A stretch of 23,502 nucleotides of DNA. It comes from a virus. The stretch lies in the IMG/VR virus record IMGVR_UViG_3300008448_000662, positions 1-23,502 of that record, one strand, 5' to 3'. Both the position numbers and the translations under genes were made by a program. Numbering within the stretch: the stretch's first letter is position 1; each line of letters opens with the position of its first letter. The notes beneath the pieces are model-generated. The model was not told where the DNA came from, did no database searches, and worked only from the letters and a program-made list of their open reading frames with translations. Positions 382-23,502 of the stretch are shown piece by piece.

Positions 382-2856
382 TTAGAAATCAAATTTTATC
401 AAAAACTGTTGAATACCCTGTCTTGGTACAGGTGACTGCAGTTTTGATATAATCATAAGGTCTTTATTTGAATCGTAAAGACCAATTTCTGTTATATATG
501 GTGGAACACCTAAAGACCACCCAGGGTTTGAACTTTTTTGGAATTCAGCATCCCCCAAGTTAATTTTATATTTCATTTCGTAGATAGTTGCTTGGATATC
601 CGTTTCAACCAAACCATAAAAATAAAACTCGTCACCAAAATTAAGTTGTTGACCTGTGTTACCATTACTTGTTAAATCAATGTAATCACTTAAATCATAG
701 GTCGGAGCCGCGTCATACAAATCTTTAGTTATTACAAAAGTGGTATTTAATAAACCATCAGAAGTTATTAAACCATTTATTGTGGTTGCTGACAAATAAT
801 CGGTGTAATCAATAATTTTCCATTCTGTTGGGTCAGGTCTTTGATTACCAATAACTTTTTGACAAATAATTTCAAATCTTTCCGCAAAATAACCTGTGGT
901 TACATCACATAAATCAGGACAAAGTGTTGTCGTTGTGGTAACGTATGGACTAGTTGTTGTGGTAGTTGTCGATGGGTTATATTGTTTATAATTTAAACAA
1001 GCAAAATCACCACCAAATCTTACACTCACGTTTTGAGAACCAATATCTACACAATTAATATTCGGACCTAATATTTTAGTATAATAATTACAATGTAATG
1101 AATTAGTGAATGACATTTCATTAGTGAATCTGTAAGTAACATACATATACTCACCTGTACCCGTTAAAACCCCTTCACTTGATTGGTTTACAGGTCCACA
1201 AGTGTTTGGTGTTGTTAATGATAATTTAGGTGCGGGTAATGTCCAATTTCGATTTGATTTATAAGATAACGCCGCAACAATTTCCTCATCATCAAATACC
1301 ACAATTTTATGGTCAGGAAATACTTTACCAACCCTACTTGGTAAACCACTTGGTGTTGGGTGATTATCCCACAAATGATAATACCTAATACCAGGCTTAT
1401 TCATATCAACGTTTTTCTTTGACTGAATATATCCAACTTGTAATAAATTAAAGTTTTCAAAACCTGGAGGGTCAACCCAAAATGTTTGCCCTTGACAACA
1501 ATCAGGATTTTTGTGCCACATCAATGTTGGTATACTGATTCTAAAATTTCTAGCTTGACCTAGAGTATCTTCAGGTAATGTGTCATCTAAAGGTTCTAAT
1601 GCAAATTTTTCACCATAATAAAAATCAATTGTTTGATTAGTATAATGAACAATAGCTATCGCCTTTTGTTCTTCAGGTTCAACCTTAACAATCTCACCAA
1701 ATGAATTATTATAATATGTATCGGTAGTTTCAGCACTATAGGTGTTATCAATAAAAAATGTTTGACCTGAATTTGATTGATATCCAAGATACTCTTTAGT
1801 CCCCATATACTGAACCGAACCAAAATTAGAGAATCCTTTATAAAAAACATCATCTAATCCCGCCAAATCTTCAGACCATGGAATATTCATATTCCATATT
1901 TTAACATCAATCTCATCACTATTACATAATGATTCAAAGTTAATTACATCAGTATTATAATGGTTTAATGGTGTTATACTATCATATAATCCTGTCATAC
2001 TTGATGGGTACACTAAAGTTCTTGCAAAGCAAGGCCCCATTAAATCAGTAAAGTCAGGTGTTGGTCTATCTAAAGTTATAACATTATTACATACATCCAA
2101 AATTCTATAAGTTAAAATAGGATAACAACTAAATAACCCCATAACACACACTGTTTCAGGTGTTGCGGGTGTTGGTGTTGGGAATGTAGGTGTTGGCGTA
2201 GGTGTCGGAGTCTCACATGGTAATGTTTCAGTAGGTGTTGGCGTACTTGTTGGTGTTTCAGTAGGTGTTGGCGTAGGTGTTGGTGTTAATCCATTACAAT
2301 TACAATCATGTTTTGCTCTACCATCAAAATAAATTGTTATAAAATCACCAATTTGTGGTAATCTAGCGATTGATGTGTTACACCCTGAATATACAACATT
2401 AATAACACTACCACCACTAACTGTCGACATATCAACCATATAGTTAGAATTAATAACATGTTTGTTATCTGTAAATGCACTCCAATATGTAAAATCATTT
2501 GTCGTTATACCTGTAAAAAACCCTCTTGGCGCTGCTCTATTATATACCGCAGTTGATATTGAATCCATATATGGGATTCCATATGTGTTACCTGAAGACT
2601 CATCCACGTAATATGGGTATTTAACGTTTTGTTTGTTTGATTCAGGGACACCACTTGAGTTTTGTGCATTAAATGATGGTTCTAATATCATGGTATTAGA
2701 TTGATTATATGATGCGGGTAAAACATTATACGATACTTCACTATCACCAATTTGGAAATATGAAATATTAAACTTACCTTGAGACAATTTTTCTCTAGCA
2801 GTATCCGTTAACCTACTGTTAATTAATGCCGATGTATTTTTTAATATATAACTCAT
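382..2856 (-). CDS. Tail-fibre protein with split fibre N-terminal-like domain and Pro-Thr / poly-Thr linkers (824 aa)
   Basis: Residues 8-45 (LTDTAREKLSQGKFNISYFQ followed by IGDSEV) resemble the first half of the DUF3751-type phage tail-fibre N-terminal domain, where a helix leads into a strand ending in a GDG-like turn. Residues 784-824 (PPYITEIGLYDSNKDLMIIS and on) resemble the second half, whose usual motif is REIGLFDxDGDLIAV. About 735 residues lie between the halves. They include a Pro-Thr repeat (191-235), a Thr-rich tract (629-644), and several Cys pairs (CNC at 185-187, CC at 453-454). No signal peptide or membrane segment is seen. The likely role is a virion fibre or connector at the baseplate rim. 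The start ATG follows an A-rich leader and overlaps the stop of a six-codon leader frame. The domain match is by eye; the middle part is unrecognised. Confidence 0.6.
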   Translation of the reverse strand: MSYILKNTSALINSRLTDTAREKLSQGKFNISYFQIGDSEVSYNVLPASYNQSNTMILEPSFNAQNSSGVPESNKQNVKYPYYVDESSGNTYGIPYMDSISTAVYNRAAPRGFFTGITTNDFTYWSAFTDNKHVINSNYMVDMSTVSGGSVINVVYSGCNTSIARLPQIGDFITIYFDGRAKHDCNCNGLTPTPTPTPTETPTSTPTPTETLPCETPTPTPTPTFPTPTPATPETVCVMGLFSCYPILTYRILDVCNNVITLDRPTPDFTDLMGPCFARTLVYPSSMTGLYDSITPLNHYNTDVINFESLCNSDEIDVKIWNMNIPWSEDLAGLDDVFYKGFSNFGSVQYMGTKEYLGYQSNSGQTFFIDNTYSAETTDTYYNNSFGEIVKVEPEEQKAIAIVHYTNQTIDFYYGEKFALEPLDDTLPEDTLGQARNFRISIPTLMWHKNPDCCQGQTFWVDPPGFENFNLLQVGYIQSKKNVDMNKPGIRYYHLWDNHPTPSGLPSRVGKVFPDHKIVVFDDEEIVAALSYKSNRNWTLPAPKLSLTTPNTCGPVNQSSEGVLTGTGEYMYVTYRFTNEMSFTNSLHCNYYTKILGPNINCVDIGSQNVSVRFGGDFACLNYKQYNPSTTTTTTSPYVTTTTTLCPDLCDVTTGYFAERFEIICQKVIGNQRPDPTEWKIIDYTDYLSATTINGLITSDGLLNTTFVITKDLYDAAPTYDLSDYIDLTSNGNTGQQLNFGDEFYFYGLVETDIQATIYEMKYKINLGDAEFQKSSNPGWSLGVPPYITEIGLYDSNKDLMIISKLQSPVPRQGIQQFLIKFDF
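925..972 (-). repeat. Poly-Thr linker coding tract
   Basis: Codons 629-644 of the 824-residue fibre gene encode two Thr runs, T6 (with an adjoining Ser) and T5, separated by SPYV. They are followed by the Cys-containing stretch LCPDLCDV. Thr codons are mixed. A similar Thr run with a following Cys is found in the 491-residue neighbour (residues 91-107), so the two fibre genes appear to share a linker type. Confidence 0.85.
2152..2286 (-). repeat. Pro-Thr coding repeat (45 codons)
   Basis: Codons 191-235 of the 824-residue fibre gene encode alternating Thr-Pro runs broken by ETPTST, ETLPCE and FPTPTPATPE. Codons are mixed: ACA, ACC, ACT and ACG for Thr, and CCA, CCT, CCG and CCC for Pro. This suggests the amino-acid pattern is selected rather than being only a simple-sequence expansion. 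A 22-nt perfect direct repeat lies at 2224-2245 and 2254-2275, offset by exactly 30 nt (ten codons), so recombination or slippage there would keep the frame. The peptide is expected to be an extended, flexible, O-glycosylatable linker. Confidence 0.9.
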
Positions 2857-2881
2857 TTTATTTTTTTTTTCATTTTTTTAA

Positions 2882-4357
2882 TCACTCATAAAGTGAACCA
2901 ACACCCTGTACATTACAACATTGACAACCACTTAAAGACACATTATTAGTGAAACCATTATAGAAAAGAATAGTTGCTTGACAACAAGGTGAGATACCTG
3001 TTGAAGTTGCACCATATTTTAAAGGTCCAGGACCTCCGTTGTATTCTTCATTATCACCGTCAAATACAGGTGTTGGTGTTGGTTCAGGAGTTATTTCAAA
3101 TTCAGATATACCAACAGGTGGTGGTGGGTTATTACATGTTTTAGTGTAACTTATTACTGTCGTAATTGAATAAACGTCATTAGTTTGGTATGTTAATGAC
3201 TCATAAGTATGGACATAATATGTGTTGTAAGTTAAATACGAAGAACAAGGATATGAATTATACGAACCAACATTATCATACGAATTATTAACGTATGTTG
3301 TTATTGGTGTACCGTTTTTAATAACCGTAGTTGTAAAAGAACCACTTGCCGAATTTATATATGGAGTCCTAGTAAATAAACCTTGTAACTGTAAGTCAAA
3401 ATTCAATGTAACACCAGCAGGTAGTGATGGAAAAACACTAATTGTTGTTGTTGTTTGAATTGAGGTACTTGATAGATTTACACTTTGCGAGTTTATTGTT
3501 ACTGAATATGTTGTTATTGGGACACTAGGAAATAATATCGTATTATTAACAGGTGGCGTAAATATAGTGTCGGTAGAATCTTTAACTTTAACCGAATATG
3601 TTACATCAGGACATAACTCTTGGAATACACTGTTTGATGACCATGTTAGTCCCCCATCAATTGAATATTGATATGGAGGTACTCCACCCGCACCTACTAA
3701 ATTAATACTACCATCACAACTTGTACATGTCGTTGGATTAGAACTAACATTTAATGATAAATTTTCAACGTTTTGACATTCACCTTGAGTCACAGTCACA
3801 TCACCTTTTTTACCTAATATTTTCCAATTATTTAGTGGTGGGTAAGCTGGGTTAGTACTAAGAACTGTCTGACCATAATTATTTAATTGCCATACGTTAT
3901 CATTAACATTCCATGTTATTGTGTAATTATCATCATCGGAAATCCAACTTTGGTAACCACCTGATAACCCATTAGGTGTAAAATGAATACTATCAGTTGT
4001 GGTCGAACCATTTTGATTTAAATAACTAATAACCATACATAACTCATATGTTGGTTGTGGAGTTGTAGATGTTGTTGTAGTTGTTGTTTGTGCCGATGCG
4101 GTTAATTTACAAGTCGTATTTGCGGTAAAATCACCATAATAATCAGTTACGGTTACAGGATATGAACCAACAGATAAATTGGTTATTGTAAATGTTGTAT
4201 TACCATTATCCCACAATATATTATAAGGCGGTATACCACCTGTAACTATTAATGATGCAACACCATCGGATGTCGTCGCACTAGTTGGATTTGTGGTTTG
4301 ACATGCAATTCCAAGTGGAAATATCGTTATAGGTTGACACTCATTATATTCAATCAT
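2882..4357 (-). CDS. SprB-repeat fibre/adhesin-like structural protein (491 aa)
   Basis: Two SprB/Ig-like repeats are visible. The first spans about residues 17-85, with the core GGIPPYNILWDNG then TNLSVGSYPVTVTD. The second spans about 203-262, with GGVPPYQYSIDGG then a final VKVKD strand. A poly-Thr linker (91-99) and a short Pro-Thr stretch (EPTPTP, 425-430) join the modules. The C-terminal 40 residues carry CC (458-459) and CQCC (478-481), a compact Cys-rich end. No signal peptide is seen, so the protein is more likely a cytoplasmically assembled virion part than a secreted adhesin. It sits 25 nt upstream of the 824-residue fibre gene and 12 nt after the glycosyltransferase gene. The likely role is a receptor-binding or decoration fibre. 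The repeat family is recognised; the rest is unknown. Confidence 0.6.
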   Translation of the reverse strand: MIEYNECQPITIFPLGIACQTTNPTSATTSDGVASLIVTGGIPPYNILWDNGNTTFTITNLSVGSYPVTVTDYYGDFTANTTCKLTASAQTTTTTTSTTPQPTYELCMVISYLNQNGSTTTDSIHFTPNGLSGGYQSWISDDDNYTITWNVNDNVWQLNNYGQTVLSTNPAYPPLNNWKILGKKGDVTVTQGECQNVENLSLNVSSNPTTCTSCDGSINLVGAGGVPPYQYSIDGGLTWSSNSVFQELCPDVTYSVKVKDSTDTIFTPPVNNTILFPSVPITTYSVTINSQSVNLSSTSIQTTTTISVFPSLPAGVTLNFDLQLQGLFTRTPYINSASGSFTTTVIKNGTPITTYVNNSYDNVGSYNSYPCSSYLTYNTYYVHTYESLTYQTNDVYSITTVISYTKTCNNPPPPVGISEFEITPEPTPTPVFDGDNEEYNGGPGPLKYGATSTGISPCCQATILFYNGFTNNVSLSGCQCCNVQGVGSLYE

Positions 4358-4369
4358 TATTACAGTTTT

Positions 4370-5368
4370 TTATATAAATAATCCGTTATTCTGTTTTTTA
4401 TTAATTAATGACTTCATAACTTCAATATATTTTATGGTTGAACTTTGTTTATCAACATAATCAAAAAAATCGGAGTTTTCTTCCAATTTAATTAGTGGGT
4501 TTACTACGATATAATCACCTTTAAAAAATTTGGTATTTTTTAAGTCTTGGGTAACACCTGCCATATGTAATATAGGTCTTGTTTCATAAACATTAATAGT
4601 GTCTGTAGCCCAAGAAAAATTAAGTTCATCAGTTATTTTAGTTTCAATACCATAATACCATAGATTCCACAACAATGACCACATTTCTGCAGTCCAAAAT
4701 TGTATCTCACCAGGATTTATTGGAAACCTCTTTTGATAATCTAACATTTGGTCATATAATGGTGCACAATTCACATAAATTTTAGACCAAATTTCAGCAT
4801 TTGTGTTTTTTATAATATATTGACCACCACCTGAGTTTTCTTGATTAGATTTAATCGTTTCAACATCAATTCCAACAACATCTGCCATTTCACTCAATAA
4901 TTGACCTTTTTCTGAATTGGGGTGTTGTTTTTCATATCTTTCACAACAATCCATTATATACCTATAACCAATATAACCTATAGTATCAGAAAGATAACTT
5001 ATATCATCATCCATTAATTTTTCGAAATCAGGCAATTCTCTAAAAATGATATCAGCATCATGTAAAAAAAATGCTTGACCATATTCAGGAAATTCTTCTA
5101 ACCATTTATAAATTAAAAATGGTTTTATATTAGGTATATAATGTTTTTGAACTCTTTCATCCAAATAATGATGTACATTTATACCATACTCTTTTAATTT
5201 TAAAGATTCATCACTTGGTGTTTTTTTACCATGAACCATAGCAAAAATAACATGAATATCATTTGGGTTAATACCTTTTTCTATAAAATTGTGAACATAT
5301 ACCTCAACTTGCCAATGAAAATATGGAACATCAGGTTGTGCGGTCACAAAGACTAAATTTTTCATCAT
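4370..5368 (-). CDS. GT-A type glycosyltransferase, resembling Hyp-arabinosyl/Ser-galactosyltransferases (332 aa)
   Basis: The protein begins with a Rossmann-like strand (NLVFVTAQPD) and has the hallmark FFLHDADIIF at about 101-109, whose Asp-Ala-Asp (104-106) would be the metal/nucleotide-sugar DxD motif. A Gly-rich acceptor loop, NSGGGQYIIKN, lies at 178-188. IQFWTAEMWSLLWNLW at 222-237 recalls the W-x-x-EM motif of plant hydroxyproline O-arabinosyltransferases and peptidyl-serine galactosyltransferases. A late His (ILHMAGV, 266-272) fits a metal ligand. No transmembrane anchor is seen, so it should act in the host cytoplasm. Two adjacent ATGs (5368, 5365) make the start uncertain by one codon. 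It sits between adhesin-like genes after a 60-nt gap. The likely job is to glycosylate fibre proteins; modification of host surface glycans or phage DNA bases is the alternative. The GT fold is well supported; sugar and acceptor are not. Confidence 0.75.
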   Translation of the reverse strand: MMKNLVFVTAQPDVPYFHWQVEVYVHNFIEKGINPNDIHVIFAMVHGKKTPSDESLKLKEYGINVHHYLDERVQKHYIPNIKPFLIYKWLEEFPEYGQAFFLHDADIIFRELPDFEKLMDDDISYLSDTIGYIGYRYIMDCCERYEKQHPNSEKGQLLSEMADVVGIDVETIKSNQENSGGGQYIIKNTNAEIWSKIYVNCAPLYDQMLDYQKRFPINPGEIQFWTAEMWSLLWNLWYYGIETKITDELNFSWATDTINVYETRPILHMAGVTQDLKNTKFFKGDYIVVNPLIKLEENSDFFDYVDKQSSTIKYIEVMKSLINKKQNNGLFI

Positions 5369-5966: not shown

Positions 5967-8855
5967 TTACATTTTATATTTAAAAATTTGATAAAGAGGT
6001 ATATGGAATGATGCCCAAGTAAATGGTTTCAACGCCAAAGTCATTTGGTTCAAAACCTTTAAATAAGCATCTCGTTGAGCTCTTTGTGTTGCACCACAAA
6101 AGTTAGCATCAGGAAATCCAGGTATTATTGTACCATCAACAACCCAAGTATTAGTTGTAGGGTCCCAAGTATAAAATTCACCATCATCAATCACAAAACA
6201 AAAAGTACCAAAACTAGATGTTAGAGGTAAATCACCATAAGATTGAACTTCAGTTAAGTAGTTTATTTCAAAATCGTACTGAGGTCCAACTAAACCTTCT
6301 TCTTCAAATATTTTTTTACAACTACAACCTTTTAATATATTATATTGAACCCAACCAATATTATCAGGACCATCATTAAAATAATCACCTTCATATCTTG
6401 TTGGTGGTAAAACAACAGGAAGATTATTAGCCTCAGTAATTCTACCTGTAACTATGTAATAGTTATAGTCACTCTGATATTTGTAGTAAGCATCTCTAAG
6501 TTCTCTAAACTCAGAACCAACAACATCACCAATTTCACATTGTAAATAATTAGGTAGCTCTGTACATCTATCAGGTATAATACTTAAATTATTTAAATAA
6601 TCGGAACCGAAAAAATCTAATTTATTTGGATAAATTACTTTAGTCTCAGTTGTTTCACAATACTCTTCAGTTATTTCACAAGAAATTGGTGTGAATTCAG
6701 GCGTATAACAACCCGTACATGATTGACACGAAATATCGTAATAAATCTTCATGTTAATCACAACACCCGCATCGTTAAATGAAACTTCAGATTCACAGTC
6801 GGTAGTTATTGTCATTAAATTTTTACTAATATTAAATGTTACCCCTGATATCCCATCATACGTCATAATAATCTCTTCAATAACATTAGTCCATTCTTCA
6901 ATAGTCGGATATTCGGTTAAAGTATTACCTGTAAAAAAACTATCTGTTTTAGTTACACCACTAATTGTTACTACCGCTTCAAAAATTGCTTCATTTAATA
7001 CACAATTAGTATTACCTGTATTTAAGTCATAAAACCCTTCAAGTAACATTTGTTTAGGTCCTTTAGTGAGTAACATACCTGTATTAGTTAAATCAGACTC
7101 ACACACACTATATATCTGATAAGATTCTTGTATCGTATTACCATCAACAACAACAGTTCGTATTTTAATACATCCATTATCATCTGTTATTTTTAAAGTG
7201 TAAGTCCCCGCAGATAAACTATTAACGTCAAACCCCGTTTGACCATTAACGTTTTCCGACCACTCTAACGTAAATGGTGGTTCACCGTTTGTAACATAAG
7301 CACTAATAGTACCATTAGTTCCGTTTGTTGAATCGGTCGATACCATAACAAAATCAACACCACTTGACGCATCAATTAAAAATTGAATATCTTGACTACA
7401 ACCTGTCCCATCTGTAACATTAACTGTGTGGGGCCCTGAAGTCAAATTAGTAAAGGTCGCTGAACTAAATGCTACTGATACCGTCAATTCATCATCCAAA
7501 ACATACGTATAGATTGGAGTACTTCCTGATACAGAAATAGTTACCGACCCATCATTAAGACCACAAGTAGTCCCCGTAGTAGTTGCCGACAATTCAAATA
7601 ATACCGTATTATTAATTACAATTTCTGTGGTATAAACACATTCACCACCATCTTGGATAGTTAACGTGTAAGTCCCTGATGTTAAATTTTCAAATGACCA
7701 ATTAGTACTATTTGTTGTTTGCGTTGTAGTACTACCTCCTATTTTACTTAGTGTGTAAATATATGGTTGTGTACCACCAAACAAGTTGATACTAATTGAC
7801 CCTCCATCATTACTACATGTAGAGTTTGTTGATGTAACCGACACAACCGAAAAACTACCAGGTGTGGTTAAATATACCGAGGTAATTGCGTTACATAATC
7901 CCGCATCAGTTACTTTAATATCAAATAACCCTGAACCTAAATTCGTAAACGTGTAATTAGTATCAAAAGATGGACCGTTATTTGTTGCCGTTGACCCTGA
8001 ATAGTAGTAAGGTGCGGTTCCTCCTGATATATAAACTGTTACCTCACCATTTGACTCAAAACAAGATGGTCCATCGGTAAAGACTGTAACTATACCAACA
8101 GGTGGTACGACTTGTACAGTTGCCGTTTTGGTGACAACACATCCTGAACTATCGGTAACTGTAACAAAATACGACCCAGCCGATAAATTAGTAATACTAC
8201 TTGTTGTTGCGCCATTAGACCATAAGTACGTAAATGGTGGTGTACCTATAATATCGTTCACAAATATTTTACCTGAGTTTACCGCACATCCCGCATCATT
8301 TACAACATACAAGGTATAATCTAAGTTTGTCGAATCTAAGATAATAACGGTTTCTGACTGACCAGTACAACCACCTCCATCATCACCAATAACATAATAC
8401 GTACTAGCCGATAAATTTTGGAACGTATAATTATCAAATTCTGTTGATGCTGATGTTACATAACCATATACCGAATCATATAAATAAAATTTGGCTTCAG
8501 GTCCATATAAAGTACTTGTTTTAGCAACAATTGACCCATTGTCTTGATTACATAACGTATTTTCACTATTAATTATAGATACACACGTCCCATTAGAAAT
8601 ATAAGCGTTAATTGCGATTACATTGTTGGGTTCACAACTGTCAATAAGATTAAATGTGTATGTGTCTGAAGGTAAATCGGTTAAAGTATAACCTGTAACA
8701 CCAGGACCTAACGCAACAGTACCTAACCCCGATGGGTTAATCCATTGAATGGTGTAATCAGGTGCGGTACCAAAAATTTCTAACGAAAACGCACCCGTTT
8801 CATTATTTGAACAATCACCTGTTAATGATAAACTATATGATAAACTACAAGCCAT
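5967..8855 (-). CDS. Large SprB-repeat tail fibre/adhesin (962 aa)
   Basis: Residues 2-567 hold seven Ig-like modules of about 70-80 residues of SprB-repeat type. The clearest is 200-240, with TPPFTYLWSNGATTSSITNL then GSYFVTVTDSSGC. Others begin near 252, 334, 418 and 500; the first two are more divergent. A C-terminal region of about 390 residues differs. It is Cys-rich (CQSCTGC at 710-716), has a helical YKYQSDYNYYIVTG segment near 791-804, and contains DLPLTSSFGTFCFVIDDGEF then YTWDPTTNTWV (875-906), a motif common in phage tail-fibre and capsid-decoration proteins. The start overlaps the stop of the 1119-residue gpI-like gene by one base (TAATG). The likely role is a long receptor-binding fibre with an adhesin-like shaft. 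No signal peptide or type IX secretion tail is seen, which argues against a host surface adhesin. Confidence 0.65.
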   Translation of the reverse strand: MACSLSYSLSLTGDCSNNETGAFSLEIFGTAPDYTIQWINPSGLGTVALGPGVTGYTLTDLPSDTYTFNLIDSCEPNNVIAINAYISNGTCVSIINSENTLCNQDNGSIVAKTSTLYGPEAKFYLYDSVYGYVTSASTEFDNYTFQNLSASTYYVIGDDGGGCTGQSETVIILDSTNLDYTLYVVNDAGCAVNSGKIFVNDIIGTPPFTYLWSNGATTSSITNLSAGSYFVTVTDSSGCVVTKTATVQVVPPVGIVTVFTDGPSCFESNGEVTVYISGGTAPYYYSGSTATNNGPSFDTNYTFTNLGSGLFDIKVTDAGLCNAITSVYLTTPGSFSVVSVTSTNSTCSNDGGSISINLFGGTQPYIYTLSKIGGSTTTQTTNSTNWSFENLTSGTYTLTIQDGGECVYTTEIVINNTVLFELSATTTGTTCGLNDGSVTISVSGSTPIYTYVLDDELTVSVAFSSATFTNLTSGPHTVNVTDGTGCSQDIQFLIDASSGVDFVMVSTDSTNGTNGTISAYVTNGEPPFTLEWSENVNGQTGFDVNSLSAGTYTLKITDDNGCIKIRTVVVDGNTIQESYQIYSVCESDLTNTGMLLTKGPKQMLLEGFYDLNTGNTNCVLNEAIFEAVVTISGVTKTDSFFTGNTLTEYPTIEEWTNVIEEIIMTYDGISGVTFNISKNLMTITTDCESEVSFNDAGVVINMKIYYDISCQSCTGCYTPEFTPISCEITEEYCETTETKVIYPNKLDFFGSDYLNNLSIIPDRCTELPNYLQCEIGDVVGSEFRELRDAYYKYQSDYNYYIVTGRITEANNLPVVLPPTRYEGDYFNDGPDNIGWVQYNILKGCSCKKIFEEEGLVGPQYDFEINYLTEVQSYGDLPLTSSFGTFCFVIDDGEFYTWDPTTNTWVVDGTIIPGFPDANFCGATQRAQRDAYLKVLNQMTLALKPFTWASFHIPLYQIFKYKM
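7155..8852 (-). repeat. Seven tandem SprB/Ig-like protein repeats
   Basis: These bases encode residues 2-567 of the 962-residue protein. Each module follows the pattern C-x-x-x-(D/N)-G-x-(I/V), then GG-x-x-P-Y-x-Y, then x-NL-x-x-G-x-Y-x-(V/L)-x-(V/I)-(T/Q)-D-x-x-x-C. The modules start near residues 2, 90, 177, 252, 334, 418 and 500. They are divergent in sequence, so the array is old or kept diverse. A Cys at both ends of most modules suggests a conserved intra-module pair. Confidence 0.75.
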
Positions 8856-22082: not shown

Positions 22083-23502
22083 TCAACTGTAAGCAACAGT
22101 ACTTAAATTTTTGACTCTAACGTTTATATCTTTATTAGGGTATCTAACTTGGTACGTTTGGTTAGGGTCGGCAAATATGGTATCATCAATTAATTTTATT
22201 TCTTTAGTTTCGCTATTAGCATATTCTTGCGATGTTTGTGATGAAGAATATTGTCCCCCAACTTTGTTAAATACTTTGATATCAGAAAGACTTATTATTC
22301 CATTTTCACTTTGGATTATCCTTCTTATTTCCGATATATTAATGTTTTGTCCCATCTGTCTATTACTAGGACTCATATAATCAGAAACCAAATTTACCAC
22401 TTGTGCTATTACCGCACCTTGTGTTTGACTATTATCTAATACAACATCAATATTAAAACTTAAATCAATAACATTACCTGATTGTATTGAGATATAGTCA
22501 TTAATCATTCTATAGTTAGAAAGAAAATTGGCAATATTACTTTTCAAAGTATTTGATACTATTTCTGTCAAACTTCCTGATTCATCGTATGCTAAAATTT
22601 GTATAATAATTTTGTTATTGTTTTCCGTAATCGCCACTTTAGCTGGTGCTCCGAATTGTGACGGCATTGTTCTGATTAATGAATCGTAATCATTAACAGT
22701 TACCGCTCTTTTTTGTGCCGAAAAATTAAACCCTACCAAATTTCTAACCTCTTCAACTGTTGGGTAATTAGCACCACCAATTGCCGCGGTTACGTTATTA
22801 CAACTTAATGAATTAACGACGGTTGTATTTGTTGATTCTGATGGACCATTCACAAAGAAAGAAACCGTACCAATTTGAGTAATAACTCCAACACCAACGT
22901 TTGTTCCTGTACCACCACCAACTCTATATTGAATGAATAACGTTGAATTTCCTTTCAGTGTACTACCTAACGCAAAGTTGTTAGAATACTTATATAAATC
23001 CAATTTAAACCCGTTTTTAGCAAATTCTTTTAATTGTTCATCCGCTGATTGACTACCACCACCAAATGTTATTTTTAAGAACCCTTCAGGTGTAAATTCT
23101 GAAATAAATTTATTACTTGTTTGTATGTATTTACCAACTTTAATACCAGGTCTATCTGAAACTTTAGTTGGGTCTTCAATAAAAACTCTATCTTCGGCTA
23201 ACGCACTAACTTCATACCATCTATTATCTAAACCTAAAAACTCTTGAGGTGTTGGGACATTACTATATTGTGTACCATCTTTTAATAATACACTTGTAAC
23301 ACCTAAGACATTTTTATCAGGTAAAAACATTTCAAAAAATGGTTTAACTTCATTTGGTGTCACAACTTTTTTAAAGACTTTTGTAAGACCATTAACAACG
23401 GTTTCTCGTTTAACAATAGTGTAATTTTCTAACTTGTTATCTGAATTAAAATTAGGTATCTTTAATCTATTAGGATAACCTTCGGAATTAGTAGGTGACG
23501 CA
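22083..23502 (-). CDS. Baseplate wedge protein, T4 gp6 / P2 gpJ-like (5' end outside the window)
   Basis: The frame is open to the right edge. Upstream of an internal GTG at 23363 I read 46 further codons (starting SPTNSEGYPNRLKIPNF), so that GTG is not the true start. Visible length is 472 residues. The C-terminal half carries the gp6/J signature: TVEEVRNLVGFNFSAQKRAV then NDYDSLIRTMPSQFG (about 248-284), then IANFLSNYRMINDYISI (about 323-339) and LSFNIDVVLD. In T4, gp6 dimers form the ring of wedges that encircles the baseplate hub and drives the switch to contraction. T4 gp6 is about 660 residues, so roughly 190 N-terminal residues would be missing if lengths match. A contractile injection system homologue is the alternative, but the neighbours favour a phage. 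Confidence 0.85.
   Translation of the reverse strand, partial: ASPTNSEGYPNRLKIPNFNSDNKLENYTIVKRETVVNGLTKVFKKVVTPNEVKPFFEMFLPDKNVLGVTSVLLKDGTQYSNVPTPQEFLGLDNRWYEVSALAEDRVFIEDPTKVSDRPGIKVGKYIQTSNKFISEFTPEGFLKITFGGGSQSADEQLKEFAKNGFKLDLYKYSNNFALGSTLKGNSTLFIQYRVGGGTGTNVGVGVITQIGTVSFFVNGPSESTNTTVVNSLSCNNVTAAIGGANYPTVEEVRNLVGFNFSAQKRAVTVNDYDSLIRTMPSQFGAPAKVAITENNNKIIIQILAYDESGSLTEIVSNTLKSNIANFLSNYRMINDYISIQSGNVIDLSFNIDVVLDNSQTQGAVIAQVVNLVSDYMSPSNRQMGQNINISEIRRIIQSENGIISLSDIKVFNKVGGQYSSSQTSQEYANSETKEIKLIDDTIFADPNQTYQVRYPNKDINVRVKNLSTVAYS

Follow-up and report, generated by a model that had tools for sequence, protein, structure and literature searches.

Threonine tracts on virion proteins and an adjacent GT-A-fold enzyme of phages: a proposed O-glycosylation system

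Mycobacteriophages Che8, Corndog, and Myrna encode their own glycosyltransferases, which modify capsid and tail-tube proteins at their C-termini and provide antibody shielding (Freeman et al. 2023, Cell Host Microbe, as cited in PMC12619734 and PMC12363180). Here, a candidate system that would share the phage-encoded glycosylation of capsid and tail proteins is described around a predicted 332-amino-acid (aa) glycosyltransferase. The enzyme is encoded in a 23,502-nucleotide stretch of viral DNA, positions 1 to 23,502 of IMG/VR record IMGVR_UViG_3300008448_000662; this whole stretch is called the window, and its record is a 23.5-kb fragment, not a whole genome. We propose, with a probability of about 0.82, that the enzyme O-glycosylates threonine (Thr) tracts on the phage's own virion proteins, which in the window would be tail-module, fiber-like proteins. 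The proposal is based on a predicted fold, catalytic-type motifs, gene order, and a repeatedly re-evolved association of enzyme and tract. The genes concerned are as follows.

4370-5368, minus strand: 332-aa GT-A-fold glycosyltransferase, proposed Thr-tract O-glycosyltransferase (PHROG 4417)
2882-4357, minus strand: 491-aa tail-module protein with SprB-type repeats (PF13573 SprB, E=3.2e-8), proposed acceptor
382-2856, minus strand: 824-aa conserved tail-module (fiber-like) protein, next gene after the 491-aa gene, proposed acceptor

The 491-aa gene starts 13 bases downstream of the glycosyltransferase gene on the same strand. The proposed function is of a known kind, because mycobacteriophages glycosylate capsid and tail-tube proteins with their own transferases; the enzyme family, its readable tag, and the spread of that tag appear new as far as the searched literature shows. 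No description of the poly-Thr tag or of the enzyme's function in phages was found in the open-access literature; preprints and most subscription journals lay outside this scope, and an earlier description is possible.

The described systems differ from this one in several respects. The Che8 glycosyltransferases gp108-110 show no homology to the hidden Markov model of the enzyme family (best E 0.28). Their genes lie far from structural genes, whereas genes of the enzyme family adjoin virion genes, and poly-Thr tags are absent from the capsid and tail proteins of Che8. Glycogenin and other GT8/GT24-like retaining GT-A enzymes (UGGT, XXYLT1, and WbbM) resemble the enzyme in fold and layout (Z 13-16 over 210-250 residues) but are 6-13% identical to it, and their known acceptors differ. 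Plant hydroxyproline O-arabinosyltransferases (GT95) and peptidyl-Ser galactosyltransferase (GT96) share with it the idea of O-glycosylated tracts rich in Pro, Thr, and Ser, and a short DxD and WxxEM resemblance. Mucin-type O-glycosylation is alike in its clustered Thr (PTTVAP-like) in tracts of variable length and in a presumably stiff, glycan-bearing stalk, whereas the phage system would be cytoplasmic, belong to a bacterial virus, and use a single small enzyme. No GalNAc-transferase surfaced in a general profile scan of the family, in which this kinship was not searched directly.

Joint occurrence of the enzyme and threonine tracts

Enzyme loci were compared with random viral loci. A Thr run of at least five residues was present in an open reading frame (ORF) in 85 of 96 de-duplicated enzyme loci and in 1 of 83 random loci. 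Per ORF, Thr runs were found in 174/1357 at enzyme loci and 1/989 in the control (Fisher p about 4e-42, which is overstated because related loci are non-independent and control loci are shorter; the tree-based test given below handles relatedness). By these counts, the pairing of enzyme and Thr tract is far beyond chance. The 11 exceptions are four contig ends, three of them with Thr-Pro tracts in the gene next to the enzyme; four distant homologs in cellular peptide clusters of the ribosomally synthesized and post-translationally modified peptide (RiPP) type; two divergent Herelleviridae enzymes with variant tracts; and phage 9183, in which the tract lies in an overlapping frame.

Two other origins of the runs were considered and rejected. 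In the same locus comparison, runs of Ser, Asn, Ala, Gly, Lys, Glu, and Gln were not enriched at enzyme loci, which rules against general homopolymer richness; Pro runs are the exception (15/44 environmental loci), at least some of them within homologs of the 824-aa protein. Expansion of DNA microsatellites was rejected because Thr runs of at least six residues use mixed Thr codons in 220 of 220 cases, with identical neighbors no commoner than in shuffles. Such mixed, unclustered codons point to selection at the protein level.

A reverse test started from the tract. Viral contigs were picked solely for encoding a Thr run of at least eight residues, and the controls were contigs whose DNA has the same pattern but does not encode Thr there in a main ORF. 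The enzyme was found in 15 of 76 Thr-run contigs (all E below 1e-70) and in 0 of 44 controls.

The strongest evidence tying the enzyme to the tract is, from these comparisons, their repeated joint gain and loss. Among 397 genomes of the Gracilibacillus order, 30 have a homolog of the tail protein, which was tagged in 5/5 with the enzyme adjacent and in 0/25 without the enzyme. Among 395 genomes of the Lacticaseibacillus order, 19 have a homolog of a capsid protein, again tagged in 5/5 with the enzyme adjacent and in 0/14 without it. On a tree of 35 tail proteins, the tag was present in 22/22 with the enzyme and absent in 13/13 without. The tree has nine label changes, at least five of which are forced by well-supported branches. 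Presence of the enzyme, and not of the tag, was the criterion for choosing the enzyme-bearing loci added to the tree. When both tags of a single prophage were compared, the capsid and tail endings agreed in 20 of 24 cases (3.6 expected; 0 of 20,000 shuffles).

Mere co-travel of Thr tracts and enzyme on one mobile module, with no enzymatic relation, is highly improbable. Tail modules do recombine as blocks, but the tag is found on unrelated proteins (capsid, tail tube, fiber, and small immunoglobulin-like proteins) across many kinds of module, and within a phage the capsid tag ends like the tail tag even though the two genes can lie kilobases apart.

The family is widespread. The enzyme was detected by tblastn in 74 phage records (Enterococcus, Lactobacillus, Staphylococcus, Lactococcus, Arcanobacterium, and Chryseobacterium phages). 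Hundreds of IMG/VR contigs also have it, as do 39 bacterial genome loci, most of which are apparently prophages. Hosts of phages with the enzyme are Bacillota, Bacteroidota, and one actinobacterium. In the isolates inspected, the enzyme gene adjoins or is near a virion gene that encodes a product with a Thr tract. In Bacillota, the tract mainly takes the form of a T5-T10 tag at the C-terminus of the major capsid and/or tail protein. Tail proteins end in TTTTTSTTTTTTSSTTTTTTTQASSK in phiFL2B, TTTTTTTTTRHD in Lactococcus bIL285, TTTTTTTTTTHHD in phage 1706, and TTTTTTTTTTAGK in VPE25, and the capsid protein of Enterococcus 4995_1 ends in TTTTTTKPTTTTTTTQA. Tagged proteins come from unrelated families, namely phrog_88 and phrog_238 (tail) and phrog_10 (capsid). 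Many Bacillota prophages (L292-L330; e.g., L312, L314, and L330) also encode a third small protein of about 100-115 aa, located between the capsid and tail genes, which has a poly-Thr end.

These positions also bear on whether the enzyme modifies a host-surface polymer, such as teichoic acid or another cell-wall glycan, for superinfection exclusion, with the Thr tags unrelated. Phages are well known to alter host surface glycans with their own glycosyltransferases, and many carriers of the enzyme are temperate and have Gram-positive hosts. A host-surface target is nevertheless very unlikely. In isolates belonging to several genera, the enzyme gene is flanked by structural genes of the head or tail, and a cell-wall role does not explain why enzyme and Thr tag switch together on the tree.

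Predicted enzyme fold and tracts in the window

The 332-aa enzyme is a full-length member of phrog_4417, which is annotated as unknown function (E=1.2e-74, residues 7-320 on profile 3-290 of 293). Pfam, NCBIfam, and PDB sequence searches with the enzyme returned no match. Structure prediction, proposed as a check in a preliminary description of the window, gave a confident GT-A fold. The AlphaFold (AF2) model was built from 45 homologs and has a predicted local distance difference test score (pLDDT) of 94.9 and a predicted template modeling score of 0.92. The enzyme is thus confidently predicted to have a GT-A glycosyltransferase fold with a DxD motif. The nearest solved fold is glycogenin (Z 15.6, 3.5 A over 230 residues), and other close folds are UGGT (Z 14), WbbM, LgtC, and related GT-A enzymes (Foldseek, VIA). 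By sequence, 0/45 family members match GT8 (Pfam Glyco_transf_8) at E<=1, which does not place the family in GT8. Three motifs stand out among the 45 homologs.

5051-5059, minus strand: DAD (DxD) motif, residues 104-106, proposed metal/nucleotide-sugar binding; D104 and D106 invariant
4679-4702, minus strand: QFWTAEMW motif, residues 223-230; W225, M229, and W230 invariant, Q223 and E228 at least 90%
4553-4573, minus strand: ILHMAGV motif, residues 266-272; H268 and G271 invariant

K283 is likewise invariant in this alignment. H268 is proposed as a metal ligand by analogy with retaining GT-A enzymes. The DAD and W-x-x-EM motifs were already recognized in the preliminary description, the latter being WTAEM within QFWTAEMW, and were taken to recall plant hydroxyproline O-arabinosyltransferases (HPAT, GT95). 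That kinship did not hold up. In hmmscan, none of 45 members matched HPAT (PF23452) or any other glycosyltransferase family profile above cut-off, and the closest folds are glycogenin, UGGT, and related GT-A enzymes. A direct PF23452 search of the window, run with no positive control, also gave no match; remote HPAT kinship remains conceivable. The proposed phage acceptor also differs from that of GT95 in being Thr, with no hydroxyproline needed. Dependence on hydroxyproline was not supported, as many Thr runs contain no Pro (e.g., TTTTTTTV and TTTTTTTTTRHD), and such tags imply that hydroxyproline is not needed. A prolyl-4-hydroxylase-type 2-oxoglutarate oxygenase (PF13640) was found in 1 of 18 large related contigs, the window's own record being only a 23.5-kb fragment.

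The enzyme might act on Thr tracts and yet transfer no common sugar, or only prime a glycan that is extended by host or other phage enzymes. Donor and product are not readable from sequence, and mycobacteriophages with glycosylated virions have several glycosyltransferase genes. Against this, no second glycosyltransferase is annotated beside the enzyme gene in the inspected isolate loci, and the GT-A fold and DxD motif point to a nucleotide-sugar donor, which makes either variant unlikely.

The two genes downstream of the enzyme gene carry Thr-Pro and poly-Thr stretches, as had been described, and these were located at three positions.

4049-4087, minus strand: poly-Thr tract TTTTTTSTTPQPT, residues 91-103 of the 491-aa protein, proposed O-glycosylation tract
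2155-2286, minus strand: Thr-Pro tract, residues 191-234 of the 824-aa protein
925-969, minus strand: poly-Thr tract TTTTTTSPYVTTTTT, residues 630-644 of the 824-aa protein

The tract at 925-969 falls outside the range previously considered (2152-5368). Thr runs or Thr-Pro repeats are present in most homologs of the 491-aa protein. Homologs of the 824-aa protein were found in 72 loci together with the glycosyltransferase. In an alignment of 26 of them (mean column identity 70%), the position of both tracts is kept, and their length and spacing vary. The Thr-Pro tract is replaced by poly-Thr in the homologs of L003, L008, L057, and L075, so the two kinds of tract look interchangeable. As a separate observation, homologs of the 491-aa protein differ greatly in length and make-up between related phages (up to 756 aa), resembling host-recognition proteins under diversification.

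Proposed glycosylation of virion proteins

In the proposed mechanism, a cytoplasmic, metal-dependent GT-A enzyme would take a sugar from a host nucleotide-sugar. The sugar would be transferred to the hydroxyls of clustered Thr in disordered, low-complexity tracts of virion proteins, at or before assembly. In the window phage, the acceptors would be the poly-Thr and Thr-Pro linkers of the two tail-module, fiber-like proteins. In most Bacillota relatives, they would be the C-terminal poly-Thr tags of the major capsid and/or major tail protein. The outcome would be a mucin-like, stiff, glycan-bearing surface that shields the particle or aids binding. An alpha linkage is likely, because the nearest folds are largely retaining enzymes. 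We infer the glycosylation as a whole, including catalysis, sugar, Thr-O linkage, retention of configuration, and benefit.

The preliminary description had suggested a virus that glycosylates its own Thr-rich fibers. Thr-rich virion proteins as acceptors are strongly supported by the comparative evidence; the plant-type analogy was dropped, and the scope was widened. In most Bacillota phages, the tags sit on major capsid and major tail proteins, and the predicted system is wider than fibers.

Several points weigh against glycosylation of the phage's own Thr tracts. The acceptor role of the window's two proteins is drawn from the family, and both are named fibers from context only. The structure model of the 824-aa protein was poor and unusable (pLDDT 47). 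Of the viral contigs that encode a long Thr run (e.g., among L092-L211), about 80% are without the enzyme, which implies other causes, other enzymes, or incomplete contigs.

With distinctly less confidence, we also favor a broader reading of the Thr run as a portable glycosylation tag. Phages whose hosts span several bacterial phyla would have acquired it repeatedly on head, tail, and fiber proteins of unrelated kinds, all then sugar-coated by one dedicated enzyme. In some phages, the capsid or tail gene would end with the tag in a second reading frame, and frameshifting would leave only part of the subunits coated.

The proposal would assign a function and a rule for substrates to an uncharacterized family present in many phages, including Enterococcus, Staphylococcus, Lactobacillus, and Lactococcus isolates. 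Because the acceptor would be readable from sequence, genomes could serve to predict which virions are glycosylated. Virion glycans influence antibody recognition, particle stability, and binding. Carriers of the enzyme include Lactococcus prophage bIL285 and Enterococcus phage VPE25, which come from well-studied laboratory systems in which the prediction is directly testable.

Distant relatives, overlapping frames, and tail-module context

The most distant homologs (27-33% identity) are outside phages, near genes for a C39-peptidase ABC transporter, LanC-like proteins, or PqqD-domain proteins. Clusters with such genes modify peptides in RiPP pathways, and the presence of homologs there supports a peptide acceptor. 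These clusters possibly make glycosylated RiPPs. Their loci are L321, L315, L328, and L329, and the PqqD domain is fused to the enzyme in L328. Glycosylation of phage DNA bases, which phage-encoded GT-A enzymes carry out in some phages, is extremely improbable for this enzyme, whose association is with virion genes and Thr tracts rather than with DNA-modification genes, and whose distant relatives are linked to peptide clusters.

Divergent enzymes are accompanied by divergent tracts. The enzyme of SAC12B is beside TTVKPTTVAP repeats, and that of LP65 is beside TETQTQTQ repeats. By its annotation, LP65 gp51, which carries a tail of the TETQTQTQ type, is structural and was detected by mass spectrometry. 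Compared across SAC12B and LP65, the predicted tract chemistry shifts along with the enzyme.

In four phages, a capsid or tail gene end overlaps a frame with a long Thr-rich extension.

Phage 9183, L471:35150-35330: capsid gene end and overlapping frame
VPE25, L468:5690-5870: capsid gene end and overlapping frame
SA2, L084:7650-7924: tail gene end and overlapping frame
TPWB06, L088:3704-3926: tail gene end and overlapping frame

Slippery-type sequences are present in the overlap, CCCAAAA in 9183 and CCC TAA in SA2 and TPWB06. This arrangement suggests that programmed frameshifting would lengthen some of the capsid or tail subunits and so dose the tag. A literature search for frameshift precedent in capsid and tail genes gave no useful paper.

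A match of one gene to a baseplate wedge family places the window in a phage tail module, which is read on the minus strand.

22083-23363, minus strand: baseplate wedge-like protein (phrog_219 baseplate wedge subunit, E=3.3e-12)

A 962-aa protein is encoded at 5967-8855 on the minus strand. It has no run of four or more Thr. It contains five SprB repeats, with weak matches to type IX secretion system sorting and immunoglobulin-like domains, and is likely a tail protein of a Bacteroidota phage.

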